DNA of 64,000 nucleotides, taken from NCBI GenBank assembly GCA_028753945.1, contig JAPNXP010000005.1, forward strand, positions 2,170,001-2,234,000. The letters are read 5' to 3'. Shown in pieces: positions 1,750-14,960 of the stretch. Position numbers and translations under genes: made by a program. This DNA comes from Hexactinellida sp. DTS-2022 (Eukaryota; Porifera; Hexactinellida). Within the stretch, counting starts at the first letter, position 1, and every line of letters begins with the position of its first letter. Under the pieces are notes generated by a model, which saw only the letters and a program-made list of their open reading frames with translations, did no database searches and was not told where the DNA came from.

Positions 1750-2949
1750 ATGAACTGCTCACACAACGATAACGTGGAACACTTTGTTACAAAGGTAAAA
1801 GTTAGGATAGGCAAGCTGCTAGATGGTCGAAAAAAAAGTAGTGATAAACCCCTTGATTTATTAAAATATATTGGATATTTATCTAATATTGATATAACTT
1901 GTGATATTTTGAATAAAACCAAAATAATAGATACTCTTAAATTACTTGAACATATTAATGATGATATAATGATTTCTGTAAGCGAATTACTTGATTCATG
2001 GAGGCAAATATTAGGTCAAAACCTCTCTTCAGGATTGGTTAAAGATACTCAGTCAACCAATAATGATATATATCCTGGATCATTTAATGAACAACTTTCG
2101 GAATCTATAAAACCTAATATGCACAAAAAAACTAATGAAATTTGTAACTCGCATCCAATTAGATGCGAACTGAACAGTTTATCAGAAATTGAACCTCCCA
2201 TTGTGGATCTAAATATCGGTTGTTTATTGACACTACCTCAATTGAAGCAAATACCTTCTCTTCCTGATATTTTACTTCCTGATACCTCAATTGACAATGT
2301 GAATAATTTTATAACCAACCAACGTATGTCAGTAAAAAGGAATCGATGTCCTTCAAATTCTATCAGCCAATTTATATCCAGAAACAGCAAGAGAAAAAAG
2401 TTGTACGCTGGAAAAATATTTATCTCTAGTTTGCATGAATTATGTATACGTAAAATCGCTTCAAACGTTCTGTTGATAGGTAAAATTCCCTGTAACAGTT
2501 TCAGAATTTTTCAACCAATTTTGGACAGAATTTCCCCTCAAGAATTAATACGCATTGAATCGTTGAATCAAGAAATTATTCCTTTTACTGAAAGCATTTG
2601 GAAACGAAATTGTCAAAAAACGTTTAAAGATACAATACAGGTTAAAATAGGAGAGTCTTGGAGAAATAATTATAATTTGATGCAAACTGAGAAAGAACAA
2701 AAATTAAAATTAGTCTCTTGTCGGATATCAACTAAACAATCTGGTAAAAAGCCCTTAAATATGATCAAGTCTATATCATTAGTTAAATGTCCTAAAAGTA
2801 GAAAAATCTTTAATCCCAACAAAACTGCTAGACATTTTTTCAATAATGATGTTGAATCTAAGAAACAAGCTCCCTTAATGAAACGAACCTTAATGGAATT
2901 CAAAGAAAGGAAACAGATATCCAAATCAAAGCCCACAATTTTTTTTTAA
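1750..2949 (+). CDS. ELOA: Elongin A-like transcription elongation factor
   Basis: Elongin A is the large subunit of the nuclear Elongin (SIII) complex, which stimulates RNA polymerase II elongation and binds Elongin B/C through a BC-box. The 399-residue frame begins with a helical region resembling the TFIIS N-terminal (LW) domain at about residues 31-90, including DDIMISVSELLDSWRQIL. A basic low-complexity linker follows. The Elongin A domain starts at about residue 225 with the BC-box-like SLHELCIRKI (about 227-236), continues through PILDRISPQELIRIESLN, SIWKRNCQKTFKD and ESWRNNY (about 301), and ends in a lysine-rich tail. Human Elongin A is roughly twice as long; the linker is what is shortened. 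No intron is needed. The family call rests on motif order; I could not run a profile search. Confidence 0.85.
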   Translation: MNCSHNDNVEHFVTKVKVRIGKLLDGRKKSSDKPLDLLKYIGYLSNIDITCDILNKTKIIDTLKLLEHINDDIMISVSELLDSWRQILGQNLSSGLVKDTQSTNNDIYPGSFNEQLSESIKPNMHKKTNEICNSHPIRCELNSLSEIEPPIVDLNIGCLLTLPQLKQIPSLPDILLPDTSIDNVNNFITNQRMSVKRNRCPSNSISQFISRNSKRKKLYAGKIFISSLHELCIRKIASNVLLIGKIPCNSFRIFQPILDRISPQELIRIESLNQEIIPFTESIWKRNCQKTFKDTIQVKIGESWRNNYNLMQTEKEQKLKLVSCRISTKQSGKKPLNMIKSISLVKCPKSRKIFNPNKTARHFFNNDVESKKQAPLMKRTLMEFKERKQISKSKPTIFF

Positions 2950-3638
2950 TATATGTGTTCCTATTATTTCCAAATATATACGGAGGTTTATTTGAGATAT
3001 CCGGATTTATTTTGTAAATATGCTAATTAATTAATTAATATGTACTGATTAGTTATTTTCTCTGACCCTTTTTCACGTTTGTACTTTACTATCAAATTAT
3101 CAGTAATTTAGTCCATTTGTTTTTAATCATGTTATCCCTAGGCGTTTAAATATCTCGAACGTTAATTTCCTATCCTTAATTAAATGTTGTAATTCACTTT
3201 CTACAACTTTGAAAGCAATGTTTTCTTTAATTAGTACAGCGATTCCCAAACCTTTTCACTTTGGAAGCCGTATAGCAAATATTTAACATTATGTGGACCT
3301 TCTGTTCAACCCATTGACCTTAATACAAATTTTGAGATCTGGACACTGGTTTAAAATGGCAGCTAGCGAACATTAGGTATCTGAGTGCATTATACAGATT
3401 AGTTTAGCATTATTTGGGTATAGGTTATCGATACCTGCGTGTTCATTGGTGAATTCAAAAAACTTATACGGCTTCTATTTTACACTAGGCTGTATGAACT
3501 GAAGTAAACTCTCTGAAGGGTTCCGCTTAAGGATTTTGGTTCCCATGGAATTGGGAATTCAATCAATCGTTATTGAGTTGATCAACGTTTTCTTAGATTA
3601 TAATGTAGGTAGATCATTTTTAGAAAAGTAATGGTATC
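2950..3638. other. 3' flank of ELOA; possible degenerate hAT end
   Basis: No gene is seen. At 3237 the sequence CAGCGATTCCCAAAC resembles the CAGTGGTTCCCAAAC end of hAT MITEs found elsewhere in the window, but I found no matching right end. Confidence 0.35.
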
Positions 3639-4569
3639 CATGGCCTACTATATAATACGGCTAGATAAGTCAAGTATTTGCCATTTTATTTCCAGGCCAG
3701 TGTTTACTTTCTAATTGCTCGTAAAATATATTCCATATTGTCATGGAATAAACTAAACTTAGGTTTTCAAATACGCTGGAGACATCTAAAATACTTTTGA
3801 GAAAGATTTCTCATCAGATTTCACCACAATGACGTAATCAAATATACATACCCATATATGGTAATAATGTTAAATAAATGTTAATTTTTTAGATAATTTG
3901 AGAATCTAACTTGCCGTTTTTATCCTAATGCATTTTTCTTGTAAAAAAACTTCCTCAGTAACTAATTATGTCATCGCTTTCACTCAAATTCTTTTCAACG
4001 TCAATGTAAGTAAATAATTATGCTATTGTTATCAAACCATATGTTTTGTTTTATTTTGAAATGTATAGTTAGATTTTAATCTAAGTCTTAAAAGTGCTGT
4101 TTGACGACGTTCATGTTGCCCAGTCAGTTTAATGACCGTTCTTGGGACTTATTTAGCTAATATTCACAAAATCTCTACTTCAATCTCTACTTCATAATTA
4201 GTATTAATTACCATATATGGGTATGTATATTTGATTACGTCATTGTTGTTAAATCCGATGAGAAATCATTCTCAAAAGTATTTTAGATGTTTCCAGCGTA
4301 TTTGAAAACCTAAGTTTAATTTATTCCATGACAATATGGAATATATTTACGAGCAATTAGAAAGTAAACACTCGCCTGGAAATAAAATGGCAAATACGTA
4401 CTTGACTTATCTAGCCGTATAATATAGTAGGCCATGTGGAATCATATTTTTCTTCATCTATGTTGAGGATAGCGTTTATTCCATCAGCCGAGTCAGGAAT
4501 GTTAAATTCATTCTGTTTCAAAATTCGTGATAAATCACGGCGGTATTTTGGCTGTGGAGCCTCAGCCAT
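3582..4569 (-). pseudogene. short unidentified frame split by a foldback MITE
   Basis: On the minus strand an ATG at 4569-4567 opens 44 codons that read cleanly (start MAEAPQPKYRRDLSRILK) down to the right edge of the foldback MITE at 4437. If the MITE (3639-4437) and one copy of its 6-bp duplication are ignored, the same frame continues at 3632 for about 17 more codons to a TGA at 3584-3582. The ancestral frame would be about 63 codons, or a first exon of a longer gene. I do not recognise the protein. The exact continuity of frame across the duplication suggests that the MITE landed in a coding sequence, but a frame this short could be chance. Confidence 0.4.
3639..4437. mobile_element. foldback MITE, family 1 (copy A)
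   Basis: About 240-bp arms are inverted copies of each other: 3639 onward reads CATGGCCTACTATATAATAC and the complement of the right end reads the same sense, with arms running inward to CCATATATGG near 3850 and 4210. The central spacer is about 350 bp without coding. Flanks are GGTATC (3633-3638) and GGAATC (4438-4443), a 6-bp duplication with one mismatch. A second member is at 26501-27582. Confidence 0.8.
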
Positions 4570-5284
4570 AGTTATTATTTGAACGTTTGATATAAATTTC
4601 TACTTTAGAAATGTAATGTTTACTATTTTAAGATAAGTATTTATATTTGTTGTTAGTGCAACGAACTATAGGCAATGGTATTTAGCAATTTTGAAAAGGT
4701 TGCGCATCAAAGCGGGTCCTATAAATTTGATATGTTGTATATGTAGCTTTTTTGAGTTAATAACAGAAATAATCGCACTTGTCTCAAGTGATCGTTTTCT
4801 CTTTTTGAAAAATATTTAGGTATAAATATTTTTGCGAAAATGTTGACTCAAGTTCAAACCGAAATTCAAAGCATAGAGGAAAATCTAGCATACTCTGAAG
4901 GTTAATTAATTAAATACAATAATTAGATACTTATTGTTAAGTATTATAAGTAGGAACAAGGATCAAGTCTGGGATTGCAAATTAAGAAGGTCAATTTTCT
5001 CACATTTTTCCAACCGCAAATTTTTTATTTTACATGTTGAAAGTGCTTTAGACTTCGACTTTACAAATGAATTACTAATATGCATTCAATTCACGCACTA
5101 TTTGATATACATAATAATGGACAATTATGAAGCAAAAATAATTGGAAATTGGCTTTTAGAGGCCATGAATTAAAAAAAAAAAGGCTGCCCCCAACCACTG
5201 TGCTGGATCCCATACTTTCGTCCGTGGACCAAGGTTTGTACCATTGCATTAATACATTATTATTGTGCCGACTATAATATAGTA
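4570..5284. other. no gene recognised
   Basis: AT-rich sequence with a short purine-rich tract near 5170-5190. Nothing supportable is seen. Confidence 0.45.
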
Positions 5285-5358
5285 CAGGGGCGTAGGAATA
5301 GGAGGCCGTGGCCCCCCCAACATCCAACATTGGGAAGTCCGGCCCCCCCAATACTATA

Positions 5359-5656
5359 GTCAATTCCCGTTAGATCCAAAGTGGAAATAACGATTTACCT
5401 GCTTATAACGAAGTCGTTCAATGTTTCGGAAATCCTTCAATCTTCTAACATCATTAAAACTTCGTCTAAAAAGAAATTGATATAACGAAATTCCGCTTAT
5501 ACCGAAGTCATATAGCTTATAAGTTATTTTCCTCCGAAAATAACTAATTCTGCTTGTAAAGTACTCCGGTTATAACGAAATCAGTTTATAACAGACTCCG
5601 CATATAACGAAATGAAACTACGGCCCCGAGCTCTTCGTAATAACGAGAGTTAACAG
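5359..5656. mobile_element. TA-flanked mariner-like MITE
   Basis: Bounded by TA at 5357-5358 and 5657-5658, with many TATAACGAA motifs inside. It belongs to the same family as 61676-61829, whose ends are better preserved (CAGTGAACTCCAGTTTAACG and its inverse). The interior has no coding. The TA target suggests a Tc1/mariner-type donor. Confidence 0.6.
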
Positions 5657-5760
5657 TATATAATTTTTTTTTATAACGGTATGTGCATGTCGGACGATGA
5701 TTAGAATACTTCTAATGAATCGTCCAATTATGATTGAAGCCCAAAGGTAGGCACAGTTAA

Positions 5761-6387
5761 TAGGGTTGCCAGATTTTCATAAGGCCAGACCCGGACAAAA
5801 ATTTTCTCTACACTATAAACCATATTTGTTGTTACTAACATATCTACTGTACATCTAAGGCATATTGTTAACAATGTATCAAAATGCTAACTACTATATA
5901 TTGTGTTATTTATGAAATTGCTTGTACTTATCACTTAATACTGCAGTGGCGTAGCCAAGCCCGGGCCTGGGAGGCACAGGCCCTGGCAACTTCTCTCTGT
6001 GCCCGGGCAATATTTTTCAATATGGTTATATTTAGTGCAGTGGAGTAGCCAAGCCCGGGACTGGGGGGCACAGGCCCGGGAAACTTCTCTCTGTGCCCGG
6101 GCAATCACTCGGAGCTGGCTACGCCACTGCTTAATAGATTTATAAACGCAATCATTGTAAGAGCCTATTTAGAATAGATAAATTCTGAAACATAACATAA
6201 CATAATATTAACTAGTAACTAAGGAATGATAACCTATAACATTAGGAAAATATGAATTATTGTGCATATTGCTTCATAATAGTGCTAACTTCTCCAAACC
6301 CGGACAAAATAGCTCCAAACCCGGACCCCGGACAAATGGCTCTAAACCCGGACTGTCCGGGTCAAACCCGGACGTCTGGCAACCCTA
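5761..6387. mobile_element. hAT-like MITE (TAGGGTTGCCAGA ends)
   Basis: Inverted ends TAGGGTTGCCAGA and TCTGGCAACCCTA are flanked by perfect 8-bp duplications ACAGTTAA (5753-5760 and 6388-6395). Several CCCGGACAAA repeats lie near both ends. It contains the smaller element 5941-6129. Confidence 0.85.
5941..6129. mobile_element. small MITE nested in 5761-6387
   Basis: Ends CTGCAGTGGCGTAGCCAAG and AGCTGGCTACGCCACTG are inverted, with a direct CTTAATA on each side (5934-5940, 6130-6136). Internally an approximately 90-bp GC-rich segment (AAGCCCGGG...GCCCGGGCAAT) occurs twice. Confidence 0.7.
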
Positions 6388-10059: not shown

Positions 10060-10679
10060 AGAAGGATACTCACGAAACTAGATGTATTATTACGATACTC
10101 CGGACAACGTCTTTCATTTTGGATTTCAAGAGCAGATAGTGTAAGTTCGCTAACAACCTTCTAACCCAATTTGACATTTTGCCTTTCTAAACTAGAAGGA
10201 AAACAAGCTTTTACAGTCAAGTGAGGGGCTAGTTTTGCGAAACTGTATCTTTCAGAATTGTAGAGAAGGCGTACAACTTGAAAGGAAGCATAATGGACAA
10301 TGAGGGGGTAGCTGCATTTATCAATGTCAATATGTTCAAAATTTGGAAAACGAAATGTTTTATCAAAAAATTTCTGATTTAACCAATTATTGCGTAGATT
10401 TTTCAATATATAGACAAAATCAAATGTAAGGAAGAGAGCTCTATTTTCATAAAAAGGGTGGGGTACTCTACTTTCCAGCCTTCCACTAAGAGAAAACAAT
10501 TTAGACAACTCAACTTTCAATTGGTAGTTATCGGTCGAAATTATTTGGACCTTTAAACCACAATGCTCAATATCTATTATACAAGATTTGATAGTGGGAA
10601 ATATGTTTTAGCTGAGATAGATGCACATGGTAACAAACGGGTAATACATGACCATTTCCTATGCAAACTAGACACCATA

Positions 10680-13600
10680 CACAGTGTCACGAAATGGTCA
10701 AATCCTGGAAGTAGCTATTTAGGTATGAGATAGGGCATTAAACTATATTATTTACATATGGGAAATTGTATCCATAGAATCGATTGGTATAATTTGATTT
10801 TTTTCTATGGTTCAGGTGTGAAAGTTGTGACGTCATTGTCACATTTTTAAAAAGAATTTTTAATTATCTCACTTTAGTTACCCCAATCTGTATTAGAAAG
10901 TTTATACAATTAAACATTATATCTATACTAGCCTTATTATCTAAATTTCCTAATTTATGTACAAATTCTTGAGGAAAAAGAACTTTTTTGATATCAATTA
11001 CGGAAGATTTTCAATAATAAGTGAATTTACGAGAATGTCTTGATCGCTCTTTAGCTCCGATACATCTACCTCCAACACTTCTTTCGTATTATTACGAAAT
11101 GAAGACAAAATAGGATCGCTATCGGAAGTAAGCCTGATGAATACATCTCTGAAATTATCTTCAAAGCTAAATTTCCTAGACAACCTCTCGCGGTATCGTC
11201 TCACAAGCTTATTACAAGCTTCTAACCCTTCCATTGATAAATTTTCCAACCCATAACAATCATTGTGATCTGAAATGATTTGAGCTGCATGTGCTAGAAG
11301 TTTATGTAATGTTGGGGTTACGTGTGCCCATGAAAAATTTATCAAAATTGATTCATACAGTATGTCTCTCGGCATACATTGTCAAGGCCTTCAGTGTCTA
11401 TTTTCCTATTGCCATTGTATAGCCTTAAAGTTACACCGAAATTATTAAAATTTTTAGTGATATTTTGATGATTTTCTTGGGGGATAACTGTCAAAACACA
11501 ATAAAGAAAATCTTTGACCGAATCATCCTTACGTGTGAAACACAACCGAACAACATTTCCTGTTGTTGAAGTTCCACCCTGGACTGATGGTGCGTCAATC
11601 GATATATTTATCTTTTCTTCGATTAAGTTGGTATAAACTTCTTAGCACGCAATTTTTAACGAAGTCGGTGACCATTTTTTAGCACCACACTGTAAATGGG
11701 AGATGAATAATAAGAACCAGCTGAAAGTTCTCAAATAAGCATGTAGAGGAGAAGCTGAAACTATATCTTTATCTGAGATTGGCATGCGAGTTAAATTGAA
11801 TCTGTGATTTGATGGCAAAGACAAAAATTCATCCTCATCAACCTCCTCAAATAAAGCAAGAACATCATGAATTGTCCTATTCACAGGATAGCCAGTTTTA
11901 ACAAAACTAATATCATGTATTTGAGCGATTGACGAAGTACATAATTGGCAACTTGCTCCACCAGCGCCGCTTAAGATTTTTGCCATCTTCGTATCGAAAT
12001 GAGAACGAATTATCTTAACCTCGGCATGACCATTCTGTAAACACAACCCACTTTCTTCAATCGCTAAAGTTTCTTGATTTATTAGTGATTCCATCAAAAA
12101 CTTCACATTTTCTTCATTCTCCGGAATGGCTAAAATAGCAACAGGTCTAGTAGAATATGGTGAATTTGGTTTATTTGGTTTCCACAGAATATTGTTGTTT
12201 GCATTTAGATGGCGTTAATTTTAAACCCAAATAACAAAAATGACTTTGAGAGCTCAGGATAACTTCTTGCTTGTTGATACACTCGATGACACCCTGATCC
12301 ATCTAGGCCATCGGACATTTTAACTTTGAGAGGAAAGTCTTGATTACCAACACTTAAGTTCATTACAATTCGCTCAACAGTATGGGAGAGTAGTTTTGTG
12401 TAAGAAATCCCTACTCCAATCGGAAATTCCCTATGAATCAGCCGCACCTCATCAACCAAGTTTTTTTGAGACCTATGAACAGCTACTCTATTATATCCTG
12501 GTAATTTGAGATCATCTGAGACCAAAGTACGTCGGAGTTATATATACTTACTTTTGCCAATCTCAAGGGAGTCAATAAGAAACGCGGATTTATCCAACGA
12601 TAATTGTGGGCACATATTAGAATAATTTCCCTTATCGATTATCTCTTTGCAAACCTTAGCACTACTAAAGTCGAGGTCCTCATTAGAGCAAAGTAATAAG
12701 AGATAAGTAGTAGGTGTCTTAGGAGATACACCTTCGTTCTGAGCAACAGTATTTAGATGCGATTTGAGGGAATAGAGACGATTCTTCAACGCTTTAGTGG
12801 TTAGATCATCAATCGCTTTTCTTTTGATTACATTGAGGTCTTCTTCAAAGCTTATGGTAGAAGTGGTGCTCAACTTAGGCCTCTTCGGAATATGACAAAA
12901 TACATAGAATTCCAAGTATCAATGTCCAAGTTCTTTTGGAATAAGTCCCTCTTTTTCTGAATCTCAGTAAACTTCAAACGGAAGAAATTCAATCATTTCG
13001 TTCGAAGCCGAAAGATGAAATAAATTGGTCGGCAATCGAGCGGGAACTATGTGTTCTGTGTTCGCACAAAAACTGAAAAGCTTCAGAGTTGTTCATATTC
13101 TAAATAAGCATTAAAATACATTACCTACTAATTGTTGATTAAATTAGATGTTTTTTCATAATTCAGCTAAGCAACCACAATGTTACATACAACTTATAAT
13201 TTGAAATTTGTAAATATTTCTAGTGACAAATTAAGTTCGAGGTAACTAAACTAAATTATCGGGAACTTTCGGGAATTTAGAATTGGCTTTATTAAATAGA
13301 GAATTTAAAATGCTATCATATAAAACTTATGAGAAAACTTGACAGAACGCGACAGATAAAGTTTTGAAACTTTGTAGTCAACTAACGGATGAAATATCTA
13401 ATATTGAATTTAGCAATTTATTGAACGTGATTATTTTATGTGTTATTAGTACTAGGATTAAATACTCACCGTTATTATGAAACTCATCTATACTAGCAAC
13501 CAAAAGAAGTCGTTAGAATGCACTAGTTGTATTTATTTTAAGAATTGAGTGTGATAATACACCTGTTCATTTGTGGTTTTGAATAATTCTTTCTGAACAA

Positions 13601-13768
13601 TTAGAATAGTCACACTAGGCAAATTCCAATTGTAGCTGTACAACGTGAGGTATTACAGCTATTTTATATTTTTGAAGTCATATGATATTCAGCTTTCAGT
13701 TTAGCATTAAACTGTTACGATATTTGAGATTAAAAAATTGGCCTACTTCCTGGTGCCGTGCCACTGTG
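10680..13768 (-). mobile_element. RAG1-like/Transib-type DNA transposon with RSS-like ends
   Basis: The element begins CACAGTGTCACG at 10680 and ends CGTGCCACTGTG at 13768, so both termini open with CACAGTG, the vertebrate RSS heptamer, followed by K-CACG. Perfect 5-bp duplications CCATA flank it (10675-10679, 13769-13773). Five-bp duplications are the rule for Transib, ProtoRAG and RAG transposition. Removing it restores the P-like frame (TVFAIM joined to VSSLHRKW). A second shared block, CCWGGAAGTAG, lies 17 nt after the heptamer at the left end and 8 nt after it at the right end. The 3.1 kb body holds a RAG1-core-like gene (minus strand), about 670 bp of 5' non-coding and about 320 bp of 3' non-coding sequence. 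No RAG2-like Kelch gene is present. Confidence 0.87.
10998..13096 (-). pseudogene. RAG1-core-like/Transib transposase remnant
   Basis: RAG1 and Transib transposases are DDE recombinases that nick and hairpin DNA at CACAGTG-type signals. From an ATG at 13096 the minus strand gives fragments in order: MNNSEAFQFLCEH; 12915-12538; 12525-12205 with KVKMSDGLDGSGCHRVYQQ, matching the first catalytic Asp region (CDGMGDVSEKHG in RAG1, DG-SG-Y-Q in Transib); 12106-11642 with SGAGGASCQLCTSS, matching the RAG1 CxxC zinc module ASGSVYICTLC; and SPLHAYLRTFSW, near RAG1 ALHCDIG. Next come 11545-11342 and 11375-10998 with HKLLAHAAQII and MEGLEACNKLVRRYRERL, matching RAG1 ASEGNESGNKLFRRFR, which carries the catalytic Glu. 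First Asp and Glu are kept; the second Asp is not evident (LHAYLR versus LHCDIG). At least five frame breaks, some perhaps introns, make it non-functional as read. Confidence 0.82.
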
Positions 13769-14960
13769 CCATAATCGCGAATACAGTTCTCGTCGCATCC
13801 TCAGAGTTTCAAATTTGGTGCAATATTTTCCCCCCTTTATAAGTAATATCAGATTTTACATTGATTTCATCCATTTGAATGAGTACATTTTTCCTCGGAA
13901 CTAAAGAAAGATGTAGCCTGGGTGAGATAAGTGCAAAAATCATTTTCAAGTCCGAAGGAAGAATACAACTTATTTAATGTATGCCATAATGGACATGTGG
14001 TAGAGTAATACATTCTAACCCCTGATAATAGATATAACAAGCTGGAGAAATGAGATGAGTCTTAATGGACATAATTTTTGGTAATTATATCGCATCTTCG
14101 CCTGTTCTTAGGAATAAATGTATTATCTAATTGACAGAGGATAAGTTGAAGCTTAGCTAAATCTGAAGAATTGTATGTAGGTCCGTCGATACGCGCTAAA
14201 TCATCAATAACATTATTTGTATGTTTTTTTGGAAAAGGAATATGGTATGAATGTGTGTTACAACTAGAATTAGAGCAGATTTTAAGGAGATTTCATGCAG
14301 TATAGATTCAACTGTCGAATATCATTAATTGAATTTAGCGAAAGGGGGGAATACTTTGTCCATGGAACCAGGCGGATACAGATTAAAAATTATTTACTTC
14401 CAGATATAAATCGACAGAAACAGTCCTATCAACTATGTTGGGTTGAATGATCTTAGTATTAGGATTATTTGGATGCCATACTAACCAATTATCAGGTAAT
14501 GCAATCAAGATTAACTTAGCTTTTAGATCCTGTAAATTTCTGATGATGTACTTATGTTTCTCCTCACTTTCAGATAGTAAGCTAAGCTGTAGTGTCTGAT
14601 TCATCAATTCTTCTTCGTTTGCGTCATACGACAAGAGAGTCCGTTTGGTTGTTGAGGTTTAAGAATAGTAGGATGGACAACCAGGAAGCAATCAGCGAAC
14701 TGCGCCGTCTCGCAACTTGGGCTTTGCACGAGGTATTTCAGTGAAAGTTCCGTCTCCATTGGGAACCTTGTGAGAAATTTCGACATCTTCTCGAAAATGC
14801 TTCACGCATACGTTGACTACCTTGAGGTTATCAATATTCTCTCGGTGAAGAGTCCGTATCCAAGCTTGTCTGAGTTCTGGTGGATGTTCAGGCATCCTGA
14901 ATATAGGAACTCGATCATCTGGGCTGTAGTTACTTCTGCATCCGGGGGCTGATCAATTGC

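Follow-up and report, generated by a model that had tools for sequence, protein, structure and literature searches.

A probable Transib-type transposon inserted in a P-like gene of a glass sponge, with palindromic bases at the right junctions of some other copies

According to Tao et al. 2022 (PMC9435367), only Subgroup II Transibs have lost the RAG2-binding alpha11-alpha12 region; Subgroup I Transibs are all asymmetric-ended and Subgroup II holds elements of both kinds, so that unequal ends alone decide nothing. The same paper gives spacers of 4 and 13 bp, a difference of 9 bp, for the RAG-like (RAGL) element of Aureococcus. Excerpts of two further papers report that Transibs make 5-bp duplications and write the motif of the CCHC tail (CTT1) as Cx2Cx3GHx4C (PMC7204232), and describe Transib ends that resemble recombination signal sequences (RSSs; PMC8355894). 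Here we analyse a 64,000-nucleotide stretch (the window) of Hexactinellida sp. DTS-2022, contig JAPNXP010000005.1, positions 2,170,001 to 2,234,000, together with the rest of the genome (112 Mb in 18 contigs, the window lying on the contig labelled C14). We consider it very probable that the 3.1-kb segment at the centre of this work is a RAG2-less cut-and-paste transposon from the Transib superfamily that entered a P-like transposase gene through a 5-bp staggered cut.

The insertion and its copies in the genome

The element measures 3089 bp and carries the heptamer CACAGTG at each end, both reading inward, with CCATA abutting it on either side (left junction CCATA-CACAGTG, 10675-10686; right junction CACTGTG-CCATA, 13762-13773), and the terminal 12 bases of its two ends are identical at 11 positions. 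These exact termini, the 5-bp duplication and the recovery of a P-like reading on removal of the segment had all been proposed from the sequence alone, and each was borne out. Fusing the flanks at a single CCATA leaves one frame open through the junction, in a P-like gene that is broken elsewhere, and once the flanks are read across the site the Pfam family TNP-like_RNaseH_N (E 4.2e-7) spans the junction; taken alone, the downstream piece gave no Pfam family and no significant PDB match. An empty site with a single CCATA was found in six of the seven P-like paralogues aligned at the insertion point, the alignment of the seventh (L111) stopping short of it. The segment is therefore inserted DNA whose entry duplicated 5 bp of its target. 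The objection that it might be native to the P-like gene, as an intron or a domain, can point to its location within the P-like reading, but the six paralogues lack it precisely, with their single CCATA, and the same element stands at unrelated sites with other duplications; we regard a native origin as next to impossible, the empty sites ruling it out.

A whole-element search returned at least 74 matching pieces in the genome (the best 40 of 156 candidates), and end-pattern scans brought up more elements whose ends read CACAGTGGCAC: some of about 1.4 kb with internal deletions, some of 1.1 kb, and additional ones of 3 kb. The junction census rests on 45 two-ended copies drawn among the matches listed; copies with an end missing, replaced or unaligned to the last bases (e.g., L002, L028, L037, L045 and L048) were left out. 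Three pairings were likewise set aside, L053/054 because it is a different, symmetric element and L084/085 and L088/089 because they were mispaired. A perfect 5-bp duplication lies directly at the heptamers in 21 of the 45; among the 43 copies read first the count was likewise 21, where random re-pairing of their flanks gave a mean of 0.62. Eight further copies match there at four of five bases, in seven a duplication appears when extra bases are allowed on the right, and one is best fitted by a 2-base left offset (four of five bases, non-palindromic); the eight with no recognisable duplication count against the Transib reading preferred here. Save for a few replaced or diverged ends (L002, L045 and L048 on the left, L039 and L050 on the right), the borders of the other copies fall at the heptamer. 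The suggestion that the ends match the vertebrate heptamer exactly stands as a match of letters and no further: exact CACAGTG is the ordinary heptamer of the local Transib group, with no special vertebrate link, and is not telling because it is ordinary among the relatives in this genome.

Table 1. Features of the element and its flanks, in window coordinates
Feature	Position	Strand	Basis or remark
Transib-type DNA transposon (probable), complete, degenerate	10680..13768	-	ends, duplication, empty sites; transposase on minus strand
Left target-site duplication CCATA	10675..10679	.	sequence and empty sites
Right target-site duplication CCATA	13769..13773	.	sequence and empty sites
Left heptamer CACAGTG	10680..10686	+	sequence
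Right heptamer CACAGTG (plus strand CACTGTG)	13762..13768	-	some other copies have extra junction bases at this end
Second box, left end, CCTGGAAGTAG	10704..10714	+	starts at nucleotide 25 of the end
Second box, right end, CCAGGAAGTAG	13743..13753	-	starts at nucleotide 16 of the end; 9 bp closer to the heptamer than on the left
Putative transposase piece 1 (126 amino acids)	12538..12918	-	no Pfam family alone; part of the strung-together protein in the tree
Putative transposase piece 2 (110 amino acids)	12205..12537	-	DGLDGSG 12292-12312, first catalytic Asp by alignment of the intact relative
Putative transposase piece 3 (190 amino acids)	11642..12214	-	FDTKM 11984-11998 (second catalytic Asp); CQLC 11939-11950 (zinc ligands)
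Putative transposase piece 4 (99 amino acids)	11342..11641	-	open reading frame
Putative transposase piece 5 (127 amino acids)	10998..11381	-	LHKLLAH 11289-11309 (zinc ligands); EGLEACNK 11208-11231 (catalytic Glu)
THAP domain, inferred start of the P-like host gene	14692..14952	-	PF05485, E 1.5e-10
Open piece upstream of the insertion	14383..14658	-	P-like by eye; no Pfam family
P-like reading, RNase H part, downstream of the insertion	10161..10607	-	TNP-like_RNaseH_N on read-through

The P-like host element occurs at no fewer than 40 genomic places with 92-100% identity (100-base flank probe, window included), and the seven paralogues aligned above come from these; in the window, the open piece just upstream of the insertion looks P-like by eye. 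The different element at L053/L054 (C2:938877-940466) has near-symmetric CACAGTGGCACAGTTA ends, and its flanks are inverted relative to each other (cattatt and aataatg), not directly duplicated. On C5 and C11, the right ends L123, L124, L125 and L126 are all bordered on the outside by one and the same sequence, cactttgtatattg, which would fit carriage of the element within another amplified repeat.

The transposase, the unequal ends and the place of the element

Five open pieces on the minus strand of the element carry DGLDGSG, FDTKM, CQLC, LHKLLAH and EGLEACNK in the order of the RAG1 core; a minus-strand protein of this likeness, with DGLDGSG and a CxxC, had been read from the letters. In the PDB, piece 5 matched HzTransib (E 8.4e-10), the RAG1-like protein (RAG1L) of ProtoRAG (4.4e-4) and RAG1 (0.02), piece 3 matched HzTransib weakly (E 0.11) and piece 2 had no match. 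With its DDE triad and C2/H2 zinc site, the broken protein has the features of a Transib transposase of RAG1-core type that retains its catalytic and zinc motifs. Two results weigh on the other side: the match of piece 5 to Pfam RAG1 (E 7.8e-5) lies under the curated cut-off, and the window copy is not among the 33 genomic places where that family was found. Transposase pieces are all that the 3.1 kb holds, and the absence of a RAG2-like gene from it was upheld.

An intact relative in the same genome, L110, has an open frame of 716 amino acids whose protein is predicted to fold like HzTransib and RAG1. It has only one ATG-started open reading frame of at least 150 amino acids, with no second frame and no linked RAG2-like gene (no genome-wide RAG2 search was made), and PF12940 was the sole domain found in it, with no RING and no RAG1-type N-terminal zinc fingers. 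Of the 33 Pfam-RAG1 places, 13 are in open frames of 616-757 amino acids. The 33 include further families, a heavy and perhaps recent Transib load. The description of the element as a fossil was overstated: the window copy is broken, but its lineage is not solely fossil, since an intact relative exists. All named homologues of L110 (22 of 68) are from Oopsacas minuta, a glass sponge. The proposed Transib/RAG1 kinship was borne out. An unrooted tree of 44 rows set the group of L110 and the window element apart both from RAG1L, itself on a long stem, and from insect/Hydra-type Transibs, as three separate groups.

Several traits of the group recall RAG1L. The zinc-binding loop, counted from CxxC to LH, spans 67 residues in L110 and in two of the three homologues measured, 69 in the third, 69 also in P0069, the sole RAG1L measurable of three tried, and 29-37 in six other Transibs. 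By loop length only, the alpha11-alpha12 trait of Subgroup I would be present. A CCHC tail, either Cx2Cx3GHx4C or a slightly longer form of it, is carried by 12 of the 67 hits P0001-P0067 (2 of them strict), by 17 of 33 RAG1L hits and by none of 120 other Transibs, many of these sequences being fragments; the tailed homologues are P0015, P0016, P0021, P0028-P0030, P0032, P0035, P0044, P0045, P0050 and P0051, the last being the one named Oopsacas minuta. No CCHC (CTT1) tail was found in the window's family or in L110. The asymmetric ends of Subgroup I are also seen in the window element. An A-rich nonamer with 12/23 spacers was not found at its ends; a second box (CCTGGAAGTAG on the left, CCAGGAAGTAG on the right) stands there instead with a 9-bp offset, which shuffled ends reach in 1 of 300 trials for the window element, 0 of 300 for a 1.3-kb relative and 36 of 300 for L109, a weak case. 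On the other side, the offset gives the best 11-mer match in four of six end pairs and clearly beats shuffling in only two; three of the six are not above shuffling, and L110, with 230 of 300, is one of these.

On these characters the window element is best described as a Transib resembling Subgroup I and not as a member of it, because its family and L110 lack the CCHC tail. A different origin, as a RAGL or ProtoRAG-type element that lost its RAG2-like gene, would account for a zinc-binding loop as long as that of RAG1L, for the RAG1L-type tail in 12 of the 67 homologues and for an offset equal to the spacer difference of the Aureococcus RAGL (PMC9435367). Yet by sequence L110 stands nearer to HzTransib (101 bits) than to ProtoRAG or RAG1 (33 and 29 bits); it is a single gene with no RING match, whose alignment to RAG1 chains begins only near residue 103; and RAG1L forms its own long-stemmed group, in a tree that is unrooted and in that respect compatible with RAG2L loss. 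We therefore judge this origin improbable, and less likely than a Transib one.

As a Transib, the element would move by a transposase that binds heptamer and second box at both ends, cuts one strand just 5' of the heptamer, converts the flank to a hairpin and joins the blunt ends of the transposon to target positions 5 bp apart. The nick-hairpin chemistry we infer from HzTransib and RAG; directly established are the borders, the duplications, the empty sites, the kept catalytic motifs, the predicted fold of the intact relative and the unequal ends of this copy. Since breaking, the window copy, like the internally deleted copies, is movable only by the transposase of another copy. A second copy, L021 (C14:2120001-2130000, positions 2201-6356), lies about 55 kb away and, across 2475 bp, shares 99.6% identity with the window element; its left flank differs, its right side is truncated, it is interrupted, and four of its five open pieces equal those of the window element in length. 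The pattern points to movement in trans of a copy that was broken beforehand.

Palindromic bases at the right junctions

In seven copies of the census the duplication begins one to three bases from the right heptamer. In five of these the duplication is perfect, and the extra bases in front of it reverse-complement its first bases exactly (L013 g-caatt, L017 cc-ggatc, L019 cg-cgaat, L024 ag-ctagg and L061/062 ag-ctaac, the hyphen marking where the duplication begins). L042 (ag-ctac) is a sixth palindromic case, with four of five duplicated bases matching, and the seventh, L104/105 (ctg-ctata), has a 3-base insert that is not palindromic and may be a chance match. Perfect matches at right offsets of 1, 2 and 3 bases number 1, 4 and 1, where shuffled pairings lead one to expect 0.07, 0.10 and 0.14. 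At the base composition of the flanks, at least six palindromic inserts in seven would arise by chance with a probability of about 8e-7, and five in five, counting strict cases, with 5e-6. No perfect duplication is offset at the left heptamer, so that right and left stand at 7:0 (two-sided 0.016) or, strictly, 5:0 (0.06), and it is on the right that the second box stands closer to its heptamer. We rejected a duplication of 7 bp without extra bases, as the two bases left of the left duplication differ from the extra bases in the 2-base cases.

The extra bases look like P nucleotides left by off-centre opening of a hairpin. In V(D)J recombination, a signal cut and rejoined to the same flank is called an open-and-shut joint, and we propose, as an evenly balanced reading, that the junctions are of this kind. 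Once the element was inserted, the transposase would cut at the right (short-spacer) end alone and close the flanking DNA into a hairpin. A nuclease of the host would then open this hairpin at one or two bases from its centre, and religation of the flank to the transposon end just cut would leave P nucleotides separating heptamer and duplication. Cleavage of a single end followed by re-sealing is the simplest form of the scheme because the element is still present and the other junction is clean.

It should be considered whether the extra bases are misread duplications or later mutations, a reading that we think possible rather than probable. The cases are few (7 of 45), and the offsets for this analysis were picked after inspection of the data. 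The insert of L104/105 is not a palindrome and a single perfect match at the 3-base offset is near chance, L042 matches at four bases only, L013 has one extra base, and three of the six palindromic cases read AG-CTA. Among the unpaired right ends, a 2+2 palindrome was seen in 1 of the 16 read (of 43), which is the chance rate; four of these 16 have the same flank and are probably a single event. In the census such palindromes number 13 of 45 on the right and 5 of 45 on the left, partly owing to TA-rich duplications, and we give this excess no weight as a separate test. For flank hairpins themselves, the palindromic junction bases would be indirect support. Misreading or mutation would nevertheless have to produce four perfect duplications at the 2-base offset where 0.10 are expected, exact reverse complements in six of seven inserts, in copies whose flanks vary, and all seven at the same end. 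A limited text search for P nucleotides or open-and-shut joints in transposons found no paper, which does not imply absence from print.

Significance and comparison with known systems

The locus adds glass-sponge Transibs without RAG2 that combine a zinc loop of RAG1L length, unequal ends, a tail in some homologues, many copies and at least one intact relative, and these should be useful for asking which RAG1 traits predate RAG2. A RAG1L-like build in a sponge and the palindromic junction bases are better grounds for attention than the heptamer. Should the palindromic junctions be what we propose, they would record in nature how a RAG1 relative chooses its ends and how its hairpins are opened, and sequence alone would give access to this record wherever genomes hold elements of the kind. 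A sponge would then show flank hairpins made without RAG2, their off-centre opening in the manner of Artemis, and the cutting of one end only of an unequal pair, which would place a large part of V(D)J joining chemistry near the base of animals. A limited text search for Transib with hexactinellid returned no paper, and none of the titles listed for Transib, sponge and RAG1 named a sponge Transib, which does not show that none is in print.

Flank hairpins and palindromic excision scars are also features of hAT elements such as Hermes. Vertebrate RAG1 with its 12/23 RSSs differs from the present system in its A-rich nonamer, its offset of 11 and not 9 bp, and its RAG2. ProtoRAG and the RAGL elements of molluscs and Aureococcus share CAC-led ends, 5-bp duplications and zinc-loop length with it, Aureococcus also the 9-bp spacer difference; here, in contrast, there is no RAG2-like gene, no RING match and lower sequence similarity. 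Drosophila Transib5 and Anopheles Transib2/N1-N3, as given in the excerpt of PMC8355894, combine an RSS-like heptamer with a second box whose distance from it differs between the two ends; the difference there is about 11 bp, with an A-rich nonamer, where this element has 9 bp and a CYWGGAASTAG-like box. Subgroup I Transibs (PMC9435367, whose main text does not mention sponges) are alike in their asymmetric ends, a trait not unique to them, in the absence of RAG2 and, judging from loop length, in an alpha11-alpha12 region that appears to be kept; some homologues also have their CCHC tail, unlike the window's family and L110. HzTransib of Helicoverpa zea (PDB 6pqn/6pqx) has the RAG1-core fold, the catalytic and zinc-binding residues and the single gene, with 5-bp duplications reported for Transibs generally (PMC7204232, excerpt); its zinc-binding loop is short in the alignment whereas the loop here is long, and it is cited as symmetric-ended in the excerpt of PMC8289069. 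What the sponge element has in common with Transibs as a whole is its CAC-heptamer ends, its 5-bp duplication, seen in CCATA with its empty sites and in the exact cases of the census, and its single gene without RAG2.

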